A DNA stretch of 64,000 nt from the NCBI GenBank assembly GCA_021815405.1, contig JAKAGV010000013.1:1-64000 (forward strand), given 5' to 3'. The translations under genes and the position numbers were made by a program. The notes beneath the pieces were generated by a model. The model saw nothing but the letters and a program-made list of their open reading frames with translations, was not told where the DNA came from and made no database searches. Origin of the DNA: Bacteroidota bacterium. Its GTDB lineage: Bacteria; Bacteroidota; Ignavibacteria; Ignavibacteriales; Ignavibacteriaceae. This document shows positions 16,971 to 24,644 of this stretch, one piece after another. How positions within the stretch are numbered: position 1 is the stretch's first letter; every line of letters begins with the position of its first letter.

Positions 16971-17813
16971 TCATTCAATAGGAGCATTCTCTCCTTTGAC
17001 TTTTTTCTCTTTCTTCTCTTCAGATTTTTTTGAAACAGTTTCTTTATTTTCTTCTGCTGATTTTTCTTCAGCTTCTTTTTCTTTTCGCTGTCTTTCATTT
17101 TCGGCAGCTTCCTGAGCTTTTAACTCTTTGCCTTTCGCTTCGCCTTCAATTATTGCATCCGCCATGCATTTAACAATTATTTCAATTGTCTTTACCGCAT
17201 CATCATTCGCCGGAATTATGTAATTAATCGGGTCAGGATCGCAGTTTGTATCTACAATAGCAAACACAGGAATATTTAATCTTTTGGCTTCCTTTACTGC
17301 TATTGCTTCCTTCTTGATATCCACAACGAACATTGCGCCTGGCAAGCGGGACATAGTTTCTACACCTTCAAGAACTTTTTTTAACTTATCCTTTTCTCTT
17401 GATAAGAATAATCTCTCTTTCTTTGTAATCTTATCAAAAGTTCCATCGGTTTCCTGTTTTTCAATGTTGTTAAGTCTCTTGATACTTTTTCTAATTGTAG
17501 AAAAATTAGTAAGCATTCCGCCGAGCCATCTTTCGCTAACCCAATTGGTGTCGCATCTTCTAGCTTCAGCTTCGATTATACTCTTAGCTTGTTTTTTTGT
17601 TCCAACGAACAAAACCTTTTTACCTTCAGCTACCATCTTTGATAAATTATCAGCAGCTTCGGCAATCATGCCTTGAGTTTTCTTTAAATCAATTATATGA
17701 ATCCCATTTTTTTCCATGAAGATGTAAGGCTTCATTTTGGGATTCCAGCGGCGAGTTAAGTGTCCGAAATGGGCACCGCCTTCAACGAGTTGAGCTATAT
17801 CTATTTTATTCAT
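16971..17813 (-). CDS. rpsB: 30S ribosomal protein uS2
   Basis: A 280-residue S2 protein. The body (1-225) is standard: [57 protein letters not shown] and [10 protein letters not shown] are all present. The last ~50 residues are a low-complexity Lys/Glu tail, longer than in E. coli but common in S2 of several phyla. It begins the rpsB-tsf unit after an intergenic stretch of 173 nt that holds the rpsI terminator and a palindromic repeat. Confidence 0.98.
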
Positions 17814-19060: not shown

Positions 19061-20575
19061 ATGGAAAAAAACGAAATCAAAAATAACGATTACAAATTTT
19101 CTTTGTTGAATGCTACTTTAAATGCAATAGATGAGGGAGTACTGGTAATTAATCTAATGGGGGAAGTAGTATTTTATAATACAAAATTCCTTGACATCTG
19201 GTCACTCACCAAAGAGAAAATGAATGACAGAGGTTCTCAGGAAATTATCAAAATTGCCACCAAGATTCCTGTGACGGAAGAAAATTCCTTCAAACAAATT
19301 GAAAATTCAAACATCAATATAAACCTTGAATTAAAAGATGTGATGAATTTTAATGATGGAAAAATTATCGAAAGATATTCCCGGCCGGAAGTAATTAGCG
19401 GTGAAATGGTCGGGCGTGTCTGGACATATAAAGATATTACTGAAATAATTTCGACTGAAAGGCAGCTTTATCAAGAAAAGGACTTTTTACAGGCGTTAAT
19501 GGATAATATCCCGGATATGATTTATTTCAAGGATACTAAATCCAGATTTACAAGAATTAATAAAGCTGAAGCCGGATTGCTCGGTATTGACAATCCGGCA
19601 GAGGCTTATGGAAAAACAGATTTCGATTATTTCGATCCTGTTCATGCAAAAGTTGCTTTTGAGGATGAGCAAAAAATTATGCTTGACAGAAAAGGCATGG
19701 TATCAAAAGCTGAAAAAATAAGACGTGCAGGTAAAGAATATATTTGGGTAACTGCAACAAAGGTTCCTATCCTCGATAAAGAAAATAATGTAATTGGTAT
19801 AGTTGGAATTTCGAGAGATGTTACGGCAAGTAAACTGGATGAAGAAAAGCTGAGAAAGTATTCTGAAGAATTAAATGAATTAAATATGGGCAAGGATAAA
19901 TTTTTTTCGATATTAGCACATGATTTACGAAGCCCACTCAGCCCCCTGCTAGGTCTTTCGGAAGTTCTTACAAAAGATTTTGATAATTTATCATACGAAG
20001 AGATCAAAGAATTCACCAAGGATATATACGAAGCAATTAAGAGACAATTCAATCTGCTTGAAAATCTTCTTAGCTGGTCAAGAATGCAGACAGGCAAAAT
20101 GGTTTGCAGCCCTGTTGAAATAAAGTTATATGAAAAAGTAAACAGTGTTGTCTCTTTGCTTAAAGAAGCTGCAAGAGACAAAAAGATATCCTTAAAAAAT
20201 TTAATAAATCCCGATTTATTTGTTTATGCAGATTCTGATATGCTGCATTCCATTCTTCAAAATTTAATTTCTAACGCAATTAAATTTACTTATCCGGAAG
20301 GTGAGATTGAGATCCTATCAAGAGAGGACGGCAGCTTCGCTGAGATTATTATTAAAGACAACGGTATTGGCATAAAGGAAGAAGATCTTGCTAATATTTT
20401 CGGATTAAATTGTTTTACAACATACGGTACAAATAAGGAAAAAGGCACGGGACTAGGATTACTAATTTGTAAAGAGATGGTGGAACGAAACGGTGGTAAA
20501 ATTAGAGTTGAAAGTGAATATCAAAAGGGAAGTAAATTTATTTTTTCATTACCTGAGTTCGTTCTAAAAAGCTAA
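19061..20575 (+). CDS. cytoplasmic PAS-PAS sensor histidine kinase
   Basis: A 504-residue kinase with no membrane segment. Two PAS domains are visible: 15-130, and 140-260 with the DNIPDMIYFKDTKSRF start and IGIVGISRDVT end. The HisKA box ILAHDLRSPLSPLL puts the phospho-acceptor at His287. The HATPase domain (about 385-500) has the N box LQNLISNAIKF, G1 DNGIGIKEED and G2 GTGLGLLICKE. It would sense an internal signal or bind a cofactor through PAS. No response regulator is adjacent, so it is an orphan. The upstream spacer to rplM is shared by divergent transcription; the ribosome binding site is weak. Confidence 0.92.
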   Translation: MEKNEIKNNDYKFSLLNATLNAIDEGVLVINLMGEVVFYNTKFLDIWSLTKEKMNDRGSQEIIKIATKIPVTEENSFKQIENSNININLELKDVMNFNDGKIIERYSRPEVISGEMVGRVWTYKDITEIISTERQLYQEKDFLQALMDNIPDMIYFKDTKSRFTRINKAEAGLLGIDNPAEAYGKTDFDYFDPVHAKVAFEDEQKIMLDRKGMVSKAEKIRRAGKEYIWVTATKVPILDKENNVIGIVGISRDVTASKLDEEKLRKYSEELNELNMGKDKFFSILAHDLRSPLSPLLGLSEVLTKDFDNLSYEEIKEFTKDIYEAIKRQFNLLENLLSWSRMQTGKMVCSPVEIKLYEKVNSVVSLLKEAARDKKISLKNLINPDLFVYADSDMLHSILQNLISNAIKFTYPEGEIEILSREDGSFAEIIIKDNGIGIKEEDLANIFGLNCFTTYGTNKEKGTGLGLLICKEMVERNGGKIRVESEYQKGSKFIFSLPEFVLKS

Positions 20576-20584
20576 AAAAAACGA

Positions 20585-20660
20585 AATGTCATTAGCACAA
20601 AAGTGGGAATCTATTCGATAATCAAAATTTCAAGATTACCGTTTTCACGGGAATGACCTT
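20585..20660. repeat. MITE-like inverted-repeat element between convergent genes
   Basis: The left arm 20585-20612 starts with AATGTCATT and ends GGGAATCT. The right arm 20633-20660 is its imperfect complement (complement starts AAAGGTCATTCCCG and ends GGTAATCT). Together they make a 76-bp element with ~28-bp arms and a 20-bp centre. The GTCATTCCCG...GGGAATC end pattern is like dispersed intergenic repeats known in many bacteria. It sits between convergent genes and could double as a bidirectional terminator. Confidence 0.6.
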
Positions 20661-20701
20661 TTTAGACTGCACTCATTACCTAAAACAAAATCATTTACCG
20701 A

Positions 20702-21448
20702 CTAAAACAAACTTCGTCCAAATTTAAAAGATTTAATCATTCCATAGAATACCGGTTGAAATGATTTGAAAGCATCTTCACCTTCCATAATTAATTCAAA
20801 ACTGAAATCCTCATCGGAGTTTGTCCGGATGTATAATGTCTGAGAAATCTGTCCTTCAAGTTTTTCCGGATTGTTGTAATAAATAGTGTAACTGTTCATC
20901 TTCACTTTATATTTGTAACGGCTTGCTGAGAAAAGATCTTTATCTTTTACTTCAAGATGAACATAAGGAGGCGGATTATAATTGCCAAGACTGGACCAGA
21001 AAGTTACGCCGTCTAATTTATTCCTAACATCTTGATCAACATATGTCCATCCCGCCGGATACTTAATAGAAACGTTTAATGTAGGTTCCTTGTAAACCTG
21101 ATTCAATCCCGAAGTATCTATTTTAACATTTGAAAAACTGTAATAGGCTGCGTTAGTAGTAAGTTCTCTTTCATTTTTGGATTTATTCTGCTCTCTATCT
21201 TTATTTATTAACTTTTCTGATTTACTATTTTTCTTCGGTATATTTTTTTGATCAGCATTATTTAAAGTTCTGGAATTTAAATCCTGCGTAGTAACTTGAA
21301 CAAAAGGCGGATTTACTCTTGCGGACTCATTTGCAGCATTTAACAAAATTAAAATTGAAAAAAGTATACCGGCATGTATCAGCACAGATACCGTAGTGCT
21401 TACAACATCAGGACGGTTGTTTCCAATTTCAATTTTGAAAGACTTCAT
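20702..21448 (-). CDS. membrane-anchored protein with a C-terminal PsbP-like domain, unknown function
   Basis: From the ATG at 21448 the protein has 248 residues: a short basic start (MKSFKIEIGNNRPD), one TM segment (about 15-38) and a polar Asn/Lys-rich linker (45-105). A globular domain of ~135 residues has a LNVSIKYPAGWTYVDQ opening and a LYIRTNSDEDFSFELIMEG segment. The fold pattern (YPxGW, then strands) recalls PsbP/LpqN-type domains; I do not know its function. The frame stays open to 21622, but the extra 58 residues are coded by a GC-richer segment unlike the gene; AAGAG just before 21448 supports the shorter start. It ends convergently with the kinase. Confidence 0.65.
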   Translation of the reverse strand: MKSFKIEIGNNRPDVVSTTVSVLIHAGILFSILILLNAANESARVNPPFVQVTTQDLNSRTLNNADQKNIPKKNSKSEKLINKDREQNKSKNERELTTNAAYYSFSNVKIDTSGLNQVYKEPTLNVSIKYPAGWTYVDQDVRNKLDGVTFWSSLGNYNPPPYVHLEVKDKDLFSASRYKYKVKMNSYTIYYNNPEKLEGQISQTLYIRTNSDEDFSFELIMEGEDAFKSFQPVFYGMIKSFKFGRSLF

Positions 21449-21640
21449 AACTCTTTTAAAAGTACAACTAAATTTAATCATCATTTTATAATTAAGCACC
21501 AATCCAGATTTTCCATATGCCGAACAATCGGAACTAAAAAGCAAAGATCGGGACAGGCACCGGGCAAATACCAAACGCCGCTTTGAGATATGCTCTACTT
21601 TGCCAAAGCTCTGATGCTGCATACGGTTTATTCGGTTTTA
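21449..21640. other. GC-richer stretch of uncertain nature upstream of the PsbP-like gene
   Basis: About 150 bp (roughly 21500-21630) are clearly richer in G+C than the surrounding intergenic DNA and stay open in more than one frame on the minus strand. In frame with the downstream gene it codes a basic, Cys/Ser-rich peptide unlike normal proteins (for example FARCLSRSLLFSS). A CGGGACAGGCACCGGG block lies at about 21549-21564. It could be a dispersed repeat, a gene remnant or a structured leader; I cannot decide. Confidence 0.35.
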
Positions 21641-21697
21641 GTTAGAATTTAGTTAAAGGAAATGCAGCCCAAGGAATTCATAAAGTTAGTTGAATCG

Positions 21698-21910
21698 ACA
21701 TGAATGGAAATTTTTATTCCCTAAATAGAATATTTAATGCCCTTATTTGTAAATTTAATAGCATAAATAGTATATTTATCAACGTAAATTAAATATTAAT
21801 AACTCTAAATAGTAATTTTATCCACATAAAAAGAATATCAATTAACAAAAATAGAAATAAATATTTCCTAAAATGAAATAATGATGACATATAAGGTGAG
21901 TAAATAAGTC
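21698..21910. repeat. array of ten 21-bp-phased imperfect boxes
   Basis: A 10-bp box, roughly [AC]C[AC]TAAATAG, recurs at exactly 21-bp steps. It starts at 21698, 21719, 21740, 21761, 21782, 21803, 21824, 21845, 21866 and 21887. Examples are CCCTAAATAG, GCATAAATAG, CTCTAAATAG, ACATAAAAAG, ACAAAAATAG. In the 21-bp unit the G at the box end is kept in nine of ten copies and the C near its start in most, while the intervening 11 bp are variable A/T. A period of two helical turns places all boxes on one face of DNA. The array ends ~140 bp before the XRE-type gene start. No coding frame runs through it. Confidence 0.7.
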
Positions 21911-22046
21911 GATTTTGTATTTCGGAATGTATTTTTTCACTATTTTGAAGGATTTTTCTTAATTATGAAGTAATTCATAGTTGTCATTCAGCGAATCAAA
22001 TGATAATTTTCATCAGGAAATTCAAAATATACGAAGGAGAACCTTT

Positions 22047-22400
22047 ATGCTTAAATATAATCTTTCAAAAATCTTTGCGGCAAGAGGAATAGTTTATAAA
22101 ACTGCTTACCTAAATAAACTTGGATTTTCCCCGAGGGTATCAAACAGAATTGCAAGCGGCGAATTTGTTAGCCTGTCACCTTATCATTTGGAAGTCTTAT
22201 GCCTCGGGCTAAACTGCACGCCGAATGATTTAATGGAATGGCAGCCGGATAAACCCGAACTTTTAAATGAAGATGTGCAACTAAAAAAATTATTAAGCAC
22301 GGAGAATAATTATAATATTCTGAGAATAATAAACGGTGTTCCGATTGATAAGATGGAAGAGTTTTCTAAAAAGATAGAAGAAGTGAAGAAGAATTTGTAA
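22047..22400 (+). CDS. small XRE-type (HTH_26-like) DNA-binding protein
   Basis: A 117-residue protein. The first ~68 residues form a Cro/C1-type helix-turn-helix: YNLSKIFAARGI, then AYLNKLGFSPRVSNRIASGE as the recognition region, then LEVLCLGLNCTPNDLMEWQPD, the usual end of this domain class. The C-terminal 45 residues are a charged helical region (KMEEFSKKIEEVKKN) that may dimerise. The ATG at 22047 is preceded by AAGGAG at proper spacing; an upstream TTG start would add 22 residues without an SD site, so I reject it. The protein follows the phased repeat array and is the natural candidate to bind it; that is inference. Confidence 0.82.
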   Translation: MLKYNLSKIFAARGIVYKTAYLNKLGFSPRVSNRIASGEFVSLSPYHLEVLCLGLNCTPNDLMEWQPDKPELLNEDVQLKKLLSTENNYNILRIINGVPIDKMEEFSKKIEEVKKNL

Positions 22401-22448
22401 GCAGATATAAAATCTTTACTTTTTACTCTTTTAAAATATAGTAAAAAA

Positions 22449-22543
22449 TGAAAATGGAATTTGAGAACAGAAGTCAGAGGTCAGTCTAAATGACTTCTTG
22501 TAGAAGTCGGTATCTGATCTCCGACAACTGATCCTTATTTTCA
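22449..22543. repeat. 95-bp imperfect inverted-repeat element
   Basis: TGAAAAT (22449-22455) and ATTTTCA (22537-22543) bound an element. Its arms pair imperfectly: GAACAGAAGTCAGAGGTCAG, about 22465-22484, against the complement of 22514-22533 (15 of 20 positions). In the centre GACTTCT (22492-22498) and AGAAGTC (22502-22508) make a perfect 7-bp stem with a 3-nt loop. It sits between the XRE gene and the response-regulator gene and looks like a miniature inverted-repeat element rather than a terminator, since no T-run follows. Confidence 0.5.
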
Positions 22544-22591
22544 TTCTCTTTTCATTTTAACTGATTATTTTTGTGAAAAGATTAAATTACT

Positions 22592-23275
22592 ATGCGTGTA
22601 CTTTTAGTTGAAGATGATAAAAAAATAACCGCTGCTCTTTCAAAAGGATTGAGGGCGGAAGGATATGCTGTTGATTCTGCTGCTGATGGTGTGAAAGGCG
22701 AAGAACTTGCAACAATAAATAGTTATGATCTAATTATTCTGGATATTATGCTGCCCAAGCAGGATGGCTGGCAAACATGCGACAATCTTCGCAAAGCAAA
22801 AGTACTTACTCCTATTATTATGCTTACTGCTCTTGATGATGTTTCAGATAAAATAAAAGGCTTGGACAGCGGTGCTGATGATTACCTTGCAAAACCTTTC
22901 CACTTTGGTGAACTGCTTGCCCGAATGCGCGCTCTTCTTAGAAGAGGTAATGAAATTAAATCTTCGGTGCTTGAAAAATTCGGATTGAAACTTGATTTAA
23001 ACACTCACATAGCCAGCCGGGAAGGCAGAGAAATTCTGCTTTCCACCAAAGAATTTGCTCTACTTGAATTGTTTATGATGAACCCGAATAAAATTTTATC
23101 ACGGGAAACAATATCAGAACATTTGTGGGATATGAACTTTGACCCGCGCAGTAATGTTATTGAGGCGTTCGTAAAATTTTTACGTCAGAAAATTGATAAA
23201 GATTTTGATAAACAGCTTATTCAAACAGTAAGGGGCTCCGGATATATTTTTAGAGAAGATGATGTTCTCTATTAA
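22592..23275 (+). CDS. OmpR/PhoB-family response regulator (CusR-like)
   Basis: A 227-residue two-component regulator. The receiver domain (1-118) has the acidic pair ED at 7-8, phospho-acceptor Asp51 in LIILDIMLP, Thr79 and Lys101. The winged-helix DNA-binding domain (about 128-224) has LLSTKEFALLELFM and VRGSGYIFRE. Its nearest relatives by pattern are CusR/PcoR-type metal-response regulators, but the signal here is unknown. Its last 17 bases overlap the histidine kinase gene that follows, so the pair is coupled. A TonB-type receptor and an efflux set lie downstream and may be its targets. Confidence 0.94.
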   Translation: MRVLLVEDDKKITAALSKGLRAEGYAVDSAADGVKGEELATINSYDLIILDIMLPKQDGWQTCDNLRKAKVLTPIIMLTALDDVSDKIKGLDSGADDYLAKPFHFGELLARMRALLRRGNEIKSSVLEKFGLKLDLNTHIASREGREILLSTKEFALLELFMMNPNKILSRETISEHLWDMNFDPRSNVIEAFVKFLRQKIDKDFDKQLIQTVRGSGYIFREDDVLY

Positions 23276-24644
23276 ATCAAAAATAATTTTGGCTTACACG
23301 TTAGTTTTCGGACTTATGCTTACCGTCTTTGCATTTATAATTTATCATAGCACAAAAGAAGCAGCATTTCTAAAGCTTAATACAAACCTGAAAGCTTATT
23401 CAATTTCCTTGCGTGCCGAAATAGAGGATGAACTGGATGATTCTGCGTCATTAAATTTAAAAAGATTATCTTCCATTAAATCTAAAGGTTTAATAGGAGA
23501 AAGATTTCAGTTATTTAACATTCAAGGAAATATTATAATCTATGATTCAGTGCTTTCAAAGGCTTCTATGCCTAACATGGATAAAATTTTGAACGAATCA
23601 TATGAAATAGATAGACAGAAGATAGGTCACCGTAGATATCATATTTTATGGAGTAAATTCGAGACTGAAAATGATTCGGTTTATATCCTCGAAACTGCGG
23701 CATCGGTTAAAGATGTTTTCGATGAATTAGATCGATTATTTTATTTATTTATAATTATAATTCCTGCCGGATTAATCTTAACTGGGTTTGCAGCATATTT
23801 TATTTCTAAAGCTGCATTTAAACCGGTGAATCAAATGGCGGAAACAGCTAAAAATATTTCCGGTGTAAACCTTGAACAACGCCTTGAACTTCCAAGAGCT
23901 AAAGACGAGGTAAGAGCTTTAGGCGAAACTTTAAATGAAATGATTGAAAGAATTGATAATGCATTCCGGAGCCAGAAAAGGTTCGTCGCTAATGCCTCTC
24001 ATGAAATTAGAACGCCGCTAACAGTAATTCAAACCGAACTTGAGATCTTAGAAAAAAGATTAAATGATAATGAATCCAAGGAAAGTATAAAGAATGCACT
24101 CTCGGAAATTGAAGACCTTACCAAACTTACTAATTCACTATTAACAATTACAAAGCTTGATTCTTCAGAAACTAAATTGAATATAAGCCGCGTAAGAATT
24201 GATGAACTACTTGCCGATTGCGTCCAGGCTATGAACCAATCTGCAATTAAGAAAAATACTCAACTGAATTTATCGATTGAGGATGCAATCGAAATTAATG
24301 CCGACAAAGAAAAGTTGAAAAGTGTTTTCTTAAACTTAATTGATAATGCAATTAAGTATTCGCCGGAATGTTCCAGTGTTTCAATAATACTTGAAAAACT
24401 TAATGATAATAAAATAAAAGTCAGCGTGGAAAATACCGGCACAGGAATATCGCCGTCCGATATTCCTTATATCTTCAACAGGTTTTACAGGTCGAATGAA
24501 ATCCGTTCCGAAGTAAGCGGCAGCGGCTTGGGGCTGGCAATCGCAAAAGAAGTTGTGGAATTGCATAGAGGAGAGATTAAGGCTGAAAGTAAAGTTGGGG
24601 AAAAAACAATCTTTAGTGTTATACTTCCGGAAATTAATGCTTAA
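23259..24644 (+). CDS. two-TM sensor histidine kinase (CusS-like)
   Basis: A 461-residue kinase. TM1 (about 8-30) and TM2 (about 161-184) frame a periplasmic sensor domain of ~130 residues; a HAMP domain follows (185-237). The H box is NASHEIRTPLTVIQ, the N box LNLIDNAIKYSPE, the G boxes NTGTGISPSDIP and GSGLGLAIAKEV. It pairs with the overlapping OmpR-type regulator. Two adjacent ATGs start it; either is possible. The periplasmic domain has no obvious His/Met/Cys clusters, so a metal signal, suggested by the CusS-like build, is uncertain. Confidence 0.92.
   Translation: MMFSIKSKIILAYTLVFGLMLTVFAFIIYHSTKEAAFLKLNTNLKAYSISLRAEIEDELDDSASLNLKRLSSIKSKGLIGERFQLFNIQGNIIIYDSVLSKASMPNMDKILNESYEIDRQKIGHRRYHILWSKFETENDSVYILETAASVKDVFDELDRLFYLFIIIIPAGLILTGFAAYFISKAAFKPVNQMAETAKNISGVNLEQRLELPRAKDEVRALGETLNEMIERIDNAFRSQKRFVANASHEIRTPLTVIQTELEILEKRLNDNESKESIKNALSEIEDLTKLTNSLLTITKLDSSETKLNISRVRIDELLADCVQAMNQSAIKKNTQLNLSIEDAIEINADKEKLKSVFLNLIDNAIKYSPECSSVSIILEKLNDNKIKVSVENTGTGISPSDIPYIFNRFYRSNEIRSEVSGSGLGLAIAKEVVELHRGEIKAESKVGEKTIFSVILPEINA

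Follow-up and report, generated by a model that had tools for sequence, protein, structure and literature searches.

Phased 21-bp arrays upstream of a family of small XRE/HTH_26 proteins in Bacteroidota, and their proposed role as cooperative operators

The window analyzed here, the whole stretch of 64,000 nucleotides, carries on its plus strand a 21-bp-phased array of about ten boxes (21,694–21,907), a leader (21,908–22,046) that extends from the array to the start codon and contains the presumed promoter and ribosome-binding site (AAGGAG at 22,035–22,040), and a gene encoding a 117-residue XRE/HTH_26 protein, the proposed binder of the array (22,047–22,400). Next on the same strand, and together spanning 22,592–24,644, lie the genes for a response regulator (22,592–23,275) and a histidine kinase (23,259–24,644), which other members of the genus keep even where the XRE gene is absent and which thus probably lie outside the unit; the region ahead of the response regulator differs among members of the genus, and no clean empty site for the window copy was found. 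The promoter consensus TAnnTTTG has no match in the window leader, and across the loci it takes no fixed place and no consistent motif was seen. No known RNA element was matched in Rfam at E values up to 0.1 (window 21,400–22,600). A dispersed repeat at 20,544–20,680 of the window has about 22 further copies among the matches listed in the same genome, at 76–88% identity, and fewer copies in congeners.

The array consists of loose variants of [AC]C[AC]TAAATAG, or CATAAATAG, each followed by an A+T-rich spacer, with no single repeated string. A reading of the sequence alone had described ten boxes at exact 21-bp steps, and the printed rows confirmed them, with starts at 21,698, 21,719, 21,740, 21,761, 21,782, 21,803, 21,824, 21,845, 21,866, and 21,887; the G that had been reported for box position 10 in nine of the ten copies is indeed missing only at 21,782. 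The first and last boxes are weak, the tenth occupying 21,887–21,907. The period-21 excess over shuffled DNA that this reading called for was also observed: over 21,698–21,910 the lag-21 identity is 0.5625, against a shuffle mean of 0.350 (sd 0.031), and the lag-42 identity is 0.567, with none of 2000 dinucleotide shuffles matching the lag-21 value, the lag-42 value, or the best value for lags 8–69. At lag 63 the identity over the same positions is 0.560, a value without a shuffle test of its own; identity that stays steady with distance is what would be expected of an old array held in register. In a window-wide scan of 213-bp stretches, the best 15 places listed all overlap the array region, where Tandem Repeats Finder reported periods of 21 and 42, and a periodic-PWM fit placed the array at about 21,694–21,891, with 9.4 units. 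No exact TAAATAG pair at 21 bp was found in the same genome. A coding repeat (21 bp being seven codons) was considered and rejected: an open frame is present in 12 of 33 arrays, with differing frames and strands, and absent from the other 21, the window array among them.

The gene following the array had been read as encoding a Cro/C1-type protein, and this agrees with Pfam, in which HTH_26 (PF13443) is the sole model passing its cut-off for the 117-residue protein, at 30.6 bits versus 22. No NCBIfam model matched the protein at E values up to 0.1, and a PDB sequence search (E up to 1) returned only an unrelated-looking TetR-type chain (E 0.68). An AlphaFold model built with 19 family sequences (mean pLDDT 79.7) predicts a confident XRE domain at residues 1–65, a low-confidence stretch, and a C-terminal helix at residues 100–116. 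Foldseek gave no match at E values up to 0.001; alignment of its list with VIA-align, in rows that cover residues 1–69 only, gave the XRE domains of SaPI2 Stl (Z 9.5, rmsd 1.7, 64 aligned), CylR2 (Z 8.8, rmsd 2.9, 66 aligned), and SinR (Z 7.9, rmsd 2.0, 64 aligned). The family protein is under purifying selection, with dN/dS values of 0.05–0.13 in six diverged pairs (one more pair being saturated) and of 0.06–0.51 in four pairs of near-identical paralogs.

The protein family is rare and patchy. Among 41 genomes, 6 had homologs, the window's own genome included. In the order, homologs at E 0.001 were present in 42 of 164 genomes; 11 of the 42 have a match with an E value of 1e-12 or better, and the others have short generic HTH matches. 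Wider samples yielded homologs in 10 of 391 genomes of the class (E 1e-12) and in 7 of 395 of the phylum (E 1e-15). The named carriers (19 loci) include MAGs of Ignavibacteria, a Marinilabiliaceae MAG, and members of Carboxylicivirga and Sunxiuqinia, with the cultured Carboxylicivirga marina and Sunxiuqinia elliptica among them. Two 71-residue proteins, L025 and L026, passed E 1e-8, and were kept as controls rather than counted as members. A pattern scan of IMG/VR confirmed no member; with one member, L055, as the query, plasmids gave no match and phages gave six partial generic HTH matches with a coverage of at most 58%.

An array of the same period was observed directly upstream of nearly all members found, as is the case for the repeated sites of multi-operator repressors. 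The best period was 21 in 37 of the 38 full-length members, not all of them independent, as they include four near-identical paralogs of one genome and the 94% identical pair L057/L058. Among 34 distinct members, for which up to 500 bp upstream (less at contig ends) and lags of 8–40 were examined, 33 have a best lag of 21, and for 31 of these 33 at most one of 300 shuffles was as good at any lag, L050 (73/300 shuffles) and L055 (22/300) not being significant on their own. L075 has a best lag of 12 and a weak lag-21 signal, the score of which was reached by 2 of 300 shuffles. Four more distant members all have a best lag of 21, with scores of 0.607–0.875 that stand without shuffles. None of 24 other HTH loci used as controls reached an array score of 0.5 at lag 21. 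The distinct fetched loci, 526 kb in all, contain 35 lag-21 arrays, and for 32 of these a family gene follows within 800 bp; these loci were mostly fetched for the gene, and so the unselected genome samples described below matter more. The phased architecture, the conservation of which near HTH_26-type genes had been set as a test of the sequence-only reading, is thus conserved in one family, and what relatives have in common is the arrangement (21 bp, usually about ten units, upstream) but not the box sequence. A DNA search of 40 relatives with the array gave, outside the window's own genome, four short weak matches (27–57 bp, E about 1e-4).

Most arrays have 9–11.5 units, as is the case for 23 of the 35 uncut by contig ends (range 1.2–23.1; L008, L062, and L064, at contig ends, were left out of this count), and the phase is kept, 320 of 334 units fitting best at offset 0 (L050 and L075 being left out here and from the box comparison below). 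The array ends a median of 59 bp before the start codon (range 11–433, n = 34; 30 bp or less at six loci), and where only 11–35 bp are left after the array, the promoter presumably lies in or before it. Related arrays agree best over about 10–14 columns of the unit, as judged by eye. Usual XRE operators are palindromic; here, palindromic units are clear in L002, L004, and L008 and weak in L059 and L063, most units are not clearly palindromic, and family-wide dyad symmetry is not significant (87/500).

These properties bear on whether specific binding by the XRE protein is needed at all to keep or generate the array, which might instead be a minisatellite arising from tandem duplication or a stretch of intrinsically bent DNA. 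Recent tandem duplication had been argued against at the outset, a claim that fits the window array but not all family arrays: the units of L074 are nearly identical (0.958), indicating that duplication does make units. Near-identical paralogs, for their part, differ in spacers. A neutral minisatellite should, however, vary, whereas the 21-bp unit recurs in nearly all members with its phase retained. Bending would be in keeping with a weak 10.5-bp A+T component in family arrays (4/1000 permutations; 14 and 7/1000 in repeat tests), as measured against a permutation null that ignores base runs; yet L074 has 49% G+C, so that A-tract bending is not common to all arrays, and the arrays without the gene described below do not have this component (862/1000). 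An origin of either kind is therefore considered very improbable. A purine profile at the 21-bp harmonic (0/1000) was set aside, because its column-permutation null likewise ignores base runs.

Box sequence and protein diverge in parallel. When the box PWMs of 36 arrays were compared (630 pairs), their similarity followed that of the proteins (0/5000 permutations), which makes the adjacent XRE protein the best candidate binder. Mantel r is 0.526 with the recognition region and 0.536 with the C-terminal part of the protein (0/5000 permutations each); the two values are equal in effect, and, given also the weight of near-identical pairs, descent alone could explain the match between box and protein. 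The ortholog L003 is 74% identical to the window protein (dS 1.81), and its boxes are similar to those of the window on the same strand and in the same phase (rank 21 of 630); the array DNA search did not report its genome. Paralogs of one genome have dissimilar boxes unless their proteins are close, and the second member in the window's own genome, L002, has its own 11-unit array with a different box.

On balance, the array is probably a cooperative multi-site operator for the gene of the adjacent XRE protein, acting in autorepression. The protein would bind about one site per 21 bp, or two helical turns, so that some ten bound units on one face of the DNA would touch one another and bind cooperatively, and the bound array, covering or flanking the promoter of the protein's own gene, would give a steep shutdown. 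Array and gene would then form a small self-contained unit in which DNA site and recognition surface diverge together, a joint divergence that would allow paralogs to operate in one cell without cross-talk; the protein may also have further target genes. Units that are mostly not clearly palindromic, arrays without the gene, the lack of a consistent promoter motif, the weak lag-21 signal of L075, and descent as a possible cause of the match between box and protein weigh against this operator reading.

Several known systems resemble the proposed unit in part. KfrA of plasmid RA3 is described as an HTH protein that acts as the repressor of its own gene at a repetitive operator, which overlaps the promoter and is composed of five 9-bp direct repeats, repression depending on repeat number and oligomerization (PMC7783346). 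The likeness, an HTH protein with a repeated operator at its own gene, is on the XRE side a proposed one, and KfrA, which is outlined as plasmid-borne and with a long helical tail, differs from the XRE unit, with its usual ten or so 21-bp units, 117-residue protein, location on chromosomal contigs, and box that is different at each locus. Autoregulation via adjacent operators is usual in multi-operator XRE repressors (phage 434/lambda type, SinR, and CylR2), generally with two or three sites. The family protein resembles them in its XRE domain and, in the predicted model, in its fold matches to CylR2 and SinR, and differs in having mostly 9–11.5 units, a fixed 21-bp spacing, and units that are mostly not clearly palindromic. 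In ParR/parC, pSK1 Par, and plasmid iterons, autoregulation is combined with arrays of direct repeats that adjoin the gene of the protein binding them; here, the array adjoins the gene of the proposed binder. Unlike in those systems, no motor or replication protein was recognized by eye beside the XRE gene, and in place of the Rep protein of an iteron replicon, only HTH_26 passes the Pfam cut-off. A partition-type centromere, which had been among the initial suggestions, is accordingly not supported: no motor gene was recognized by eye among the immediate neighbors, and plasmids gave no match for the one member searched. The ARG boxes of ArgR, at 18 bp plus 3 bp, recur every 21 bp, the same spacing of neighboring sites, and one array without the gene precedes an argC-like gene (L126, below); the window protein, by contrast, is XRE/HTH_26, and the boxes here vary between loci. 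Among the titles and starts of abstracts listed in literature searches, none described a unit made up of a phased array and an XRE gene. The family represents a regulator whose site geometry is kept over several Bacteroidota orders while the sequence changes with the protein, that is, a set of natural matched protein–DNA pairs; if binding is confirmed, XRE recognition rules could be read from it, the number of phased sites needed for cooperative assembly could be tested, and orthogonal repressors could be obtained.

Arrays of this kind also occur without the gene. A sample of the window's own genome (1.144 Mb in 55 stretches, window included) gave 14 matches each at lags 21 and 42 and at most 6 at other lags. 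Of the 14 lag-21 matches, four fall within reading frames; the ten intergenic ones are the window array and nine orphan arrays without a family gene (8 intergenic and 6 coding under a laxer ORF rule). The nine, at L126:2333-2493, L200:12095-12209, L201:13306-13766, L204:9513-9789, L209:18679-18817, L217:3793-4042, L222:17164-17255 and 17490-17741, and L228:7931-8055, include four between convergent genes in three regions (L201, L204, and L222 twice), the 22-unit L201 array nearly filling the gap between its two genes; others lie ahead of genes read as argC (L126), a NUDIX hydrolase (L228), and a 126-residue helical protein (L217). In the congener G003, in which no family gene was found, 400 kb contained two intergenic arrays (L248:4168-4387 and L255:18811-18945), one of which precedes a gene homologous to that of the 126-residue protein. 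Samples of 200 kb each gave no array in G066 and a single weak one in G713, a genome with a family gene outside the sampled part. Orphan arrays have 4.4–22 units, and their boxes are mostly unlike each other and unlike family boxes, the exceptions being the pair L222b/L255 and L179, which resembles the box of L003. The 126-residue protein (L217:4168-4548 and L248:3626-4006) is 41% identical between the two genomes, has no Pfam match over the cut-off, and has a 21-bp array upstream in both, with different boxes.

Further arrays were encountered in a regulon search with a 63-bp three-unit model, in which 150 of 10,076 candidates were scored. Three matches of the model lie in the window array itself, and the other 26 have E values of 0.005 or worse. 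Of 22 match places inspected, four have a lag-21 array of 0.5 or more, all in the window's own genome: L179:1548-1716 and L185:1459-1673, between convergent genes, the latter with TTGGAAATTTCCAA-like palindromes; L180:1498-1649; and L178:3060-3171, ahead of genes reading like cdd, tdk, and a nucleoside transporter. As a carrier of the window box, L178 was marginal (1/1000 shuffles and 5/200 column-permuted PWMs, with the L002 locus scoring equally), and no shared regulon is therefore claimed.

The existence of orphan arrays shows that the architecture is wider than the gene family and tells against an exclusive link between array and gene; those between convergent genes are not ordinary operators, and some arrays may not be operators. 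One alternative is that 21-bp arrays are a general class of chromosomal site, such as filaments that organize the nucleoid or its domains or spacers between transcription units, with another binder or binders, the XRE gene being one of several neighbors. The nine orphans of the 1.144-Mb sample, the four arrays found through model matches, the two in G003, and the array upstream of the 126-residue protein gene in both genomes where it was seen all agree with such a class. Set against them are the 37 of 38 family genes with an array directly upstream, compared with about one orphan per 120 kb in the window's own genome, a density at which less than 1% of genes would have an array within 800 bp by chance, so that the family association stands; in addition, one general binder would leave the mostly differing orphan boxes unexplained, and G066 and G713 provided none and one weak array, respectively. 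A general class is regarded as unlikely. Less certain than the operator reading and more interesting is a similarly doubtful idea, that arrays of about ten 21-bp units are a genome-wide, satellite-like class of protein-binding sites to some of which solitary XRE proteins are matched, the orphans organizing the chromosome or being non-autonomous relatives of a cassette. The analogy would be with eukaryotic centromeric satellites, in which period and rough size are fixed and sequence turnover is fast. If orphan arrays are bound too, they may represent an unnoticed layer of chromosome organization in Ignavibacteria and relatives.

The copies within one genome, G064, bear on a third possibility, that array and gene are a small mobile or selfish cassette, with an iteron- or centromere-like array serving its own maintenance or spread and the orphans as non-autonomous or decayed copies. 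G064 has eight family genes, four of them near-identical and dispersed to different places, sharing homology over the array and the gene up to roughly the stop codon. Such copies would be expected of a cassette, as would the patchy distribution noted above, the changing neighbors, and the last 49–55 bp of the gene copied beside added modules at the L002/L004 site. Ectopic gene conversion could, however, also yield the common segments; in several congeners, orthologous copies have kept their position; no transposase, integrase, motor/NTPase, or other partner was recognized among the neighbors (one on each side, read by eye); and the one member searched gave no plasmid match and only the partial generic HTH matches in phages. 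A cassette is thus held to be rather improbable, below a general class of sites. In the near-identical copies L061 and L063, the box cores are common and the spacers are not, which suggests that the arrays are renewed locally, yet both have about 11 units (11.0 and 11.4). L063 sits 72 bp before a cdd-like gene that congeners carry without the array; upstream of cdd in the G064 congeners, no lag-21 array was found, the best lag-21 scores being 0.387–0.405.

The neighborhoods of the family genes were compared by eye, one neighbor on each side. Flanking genes mostly change between loci, except at orthologous places (L001/L003, L002/L004/L008, and L019/L020/L059) and at L159 and L160, which adjoin a related gene. 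No recurrent partner gene, such as a toxin, was seen among these immediate neighbors; toxin-like genes adjoin some copies (L002, L004, L008, and L009) in a pattern that is not constant, and membership in a toxin–antitoxin system is, as judged from these neighbors, not supported.

Three further observations concern individual sites. The L019, L020, and L059 loci, which belong to three genomes, have a gene reading like UDP-galactopyranose mutase ahead of the array and XRE gene; an operon is suggested at L019 and L020, where the XRE gene and the one after it share 8 bp. At the L002 and L004 loci (L073 and L123, respectively), the XRE gene is followed directly by two small toxin–antitoxin-like modules, whose order is reversed between the window's own genome (G000) and G008 and which lie beside copies of the last 49–55 bp of the XRE gene. 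BLAST matches outside family genes, 12 in all, were confined to the 3′ end of the XRE gene, with none in its middle or at its 5′ end; three were weak and located elsewhere. Finally, an intergenic array at L138:15841-16150 has a 42-bp period, corresponding to four helical turns, and ACTCCAAAATGAGAGT-like palindromes.
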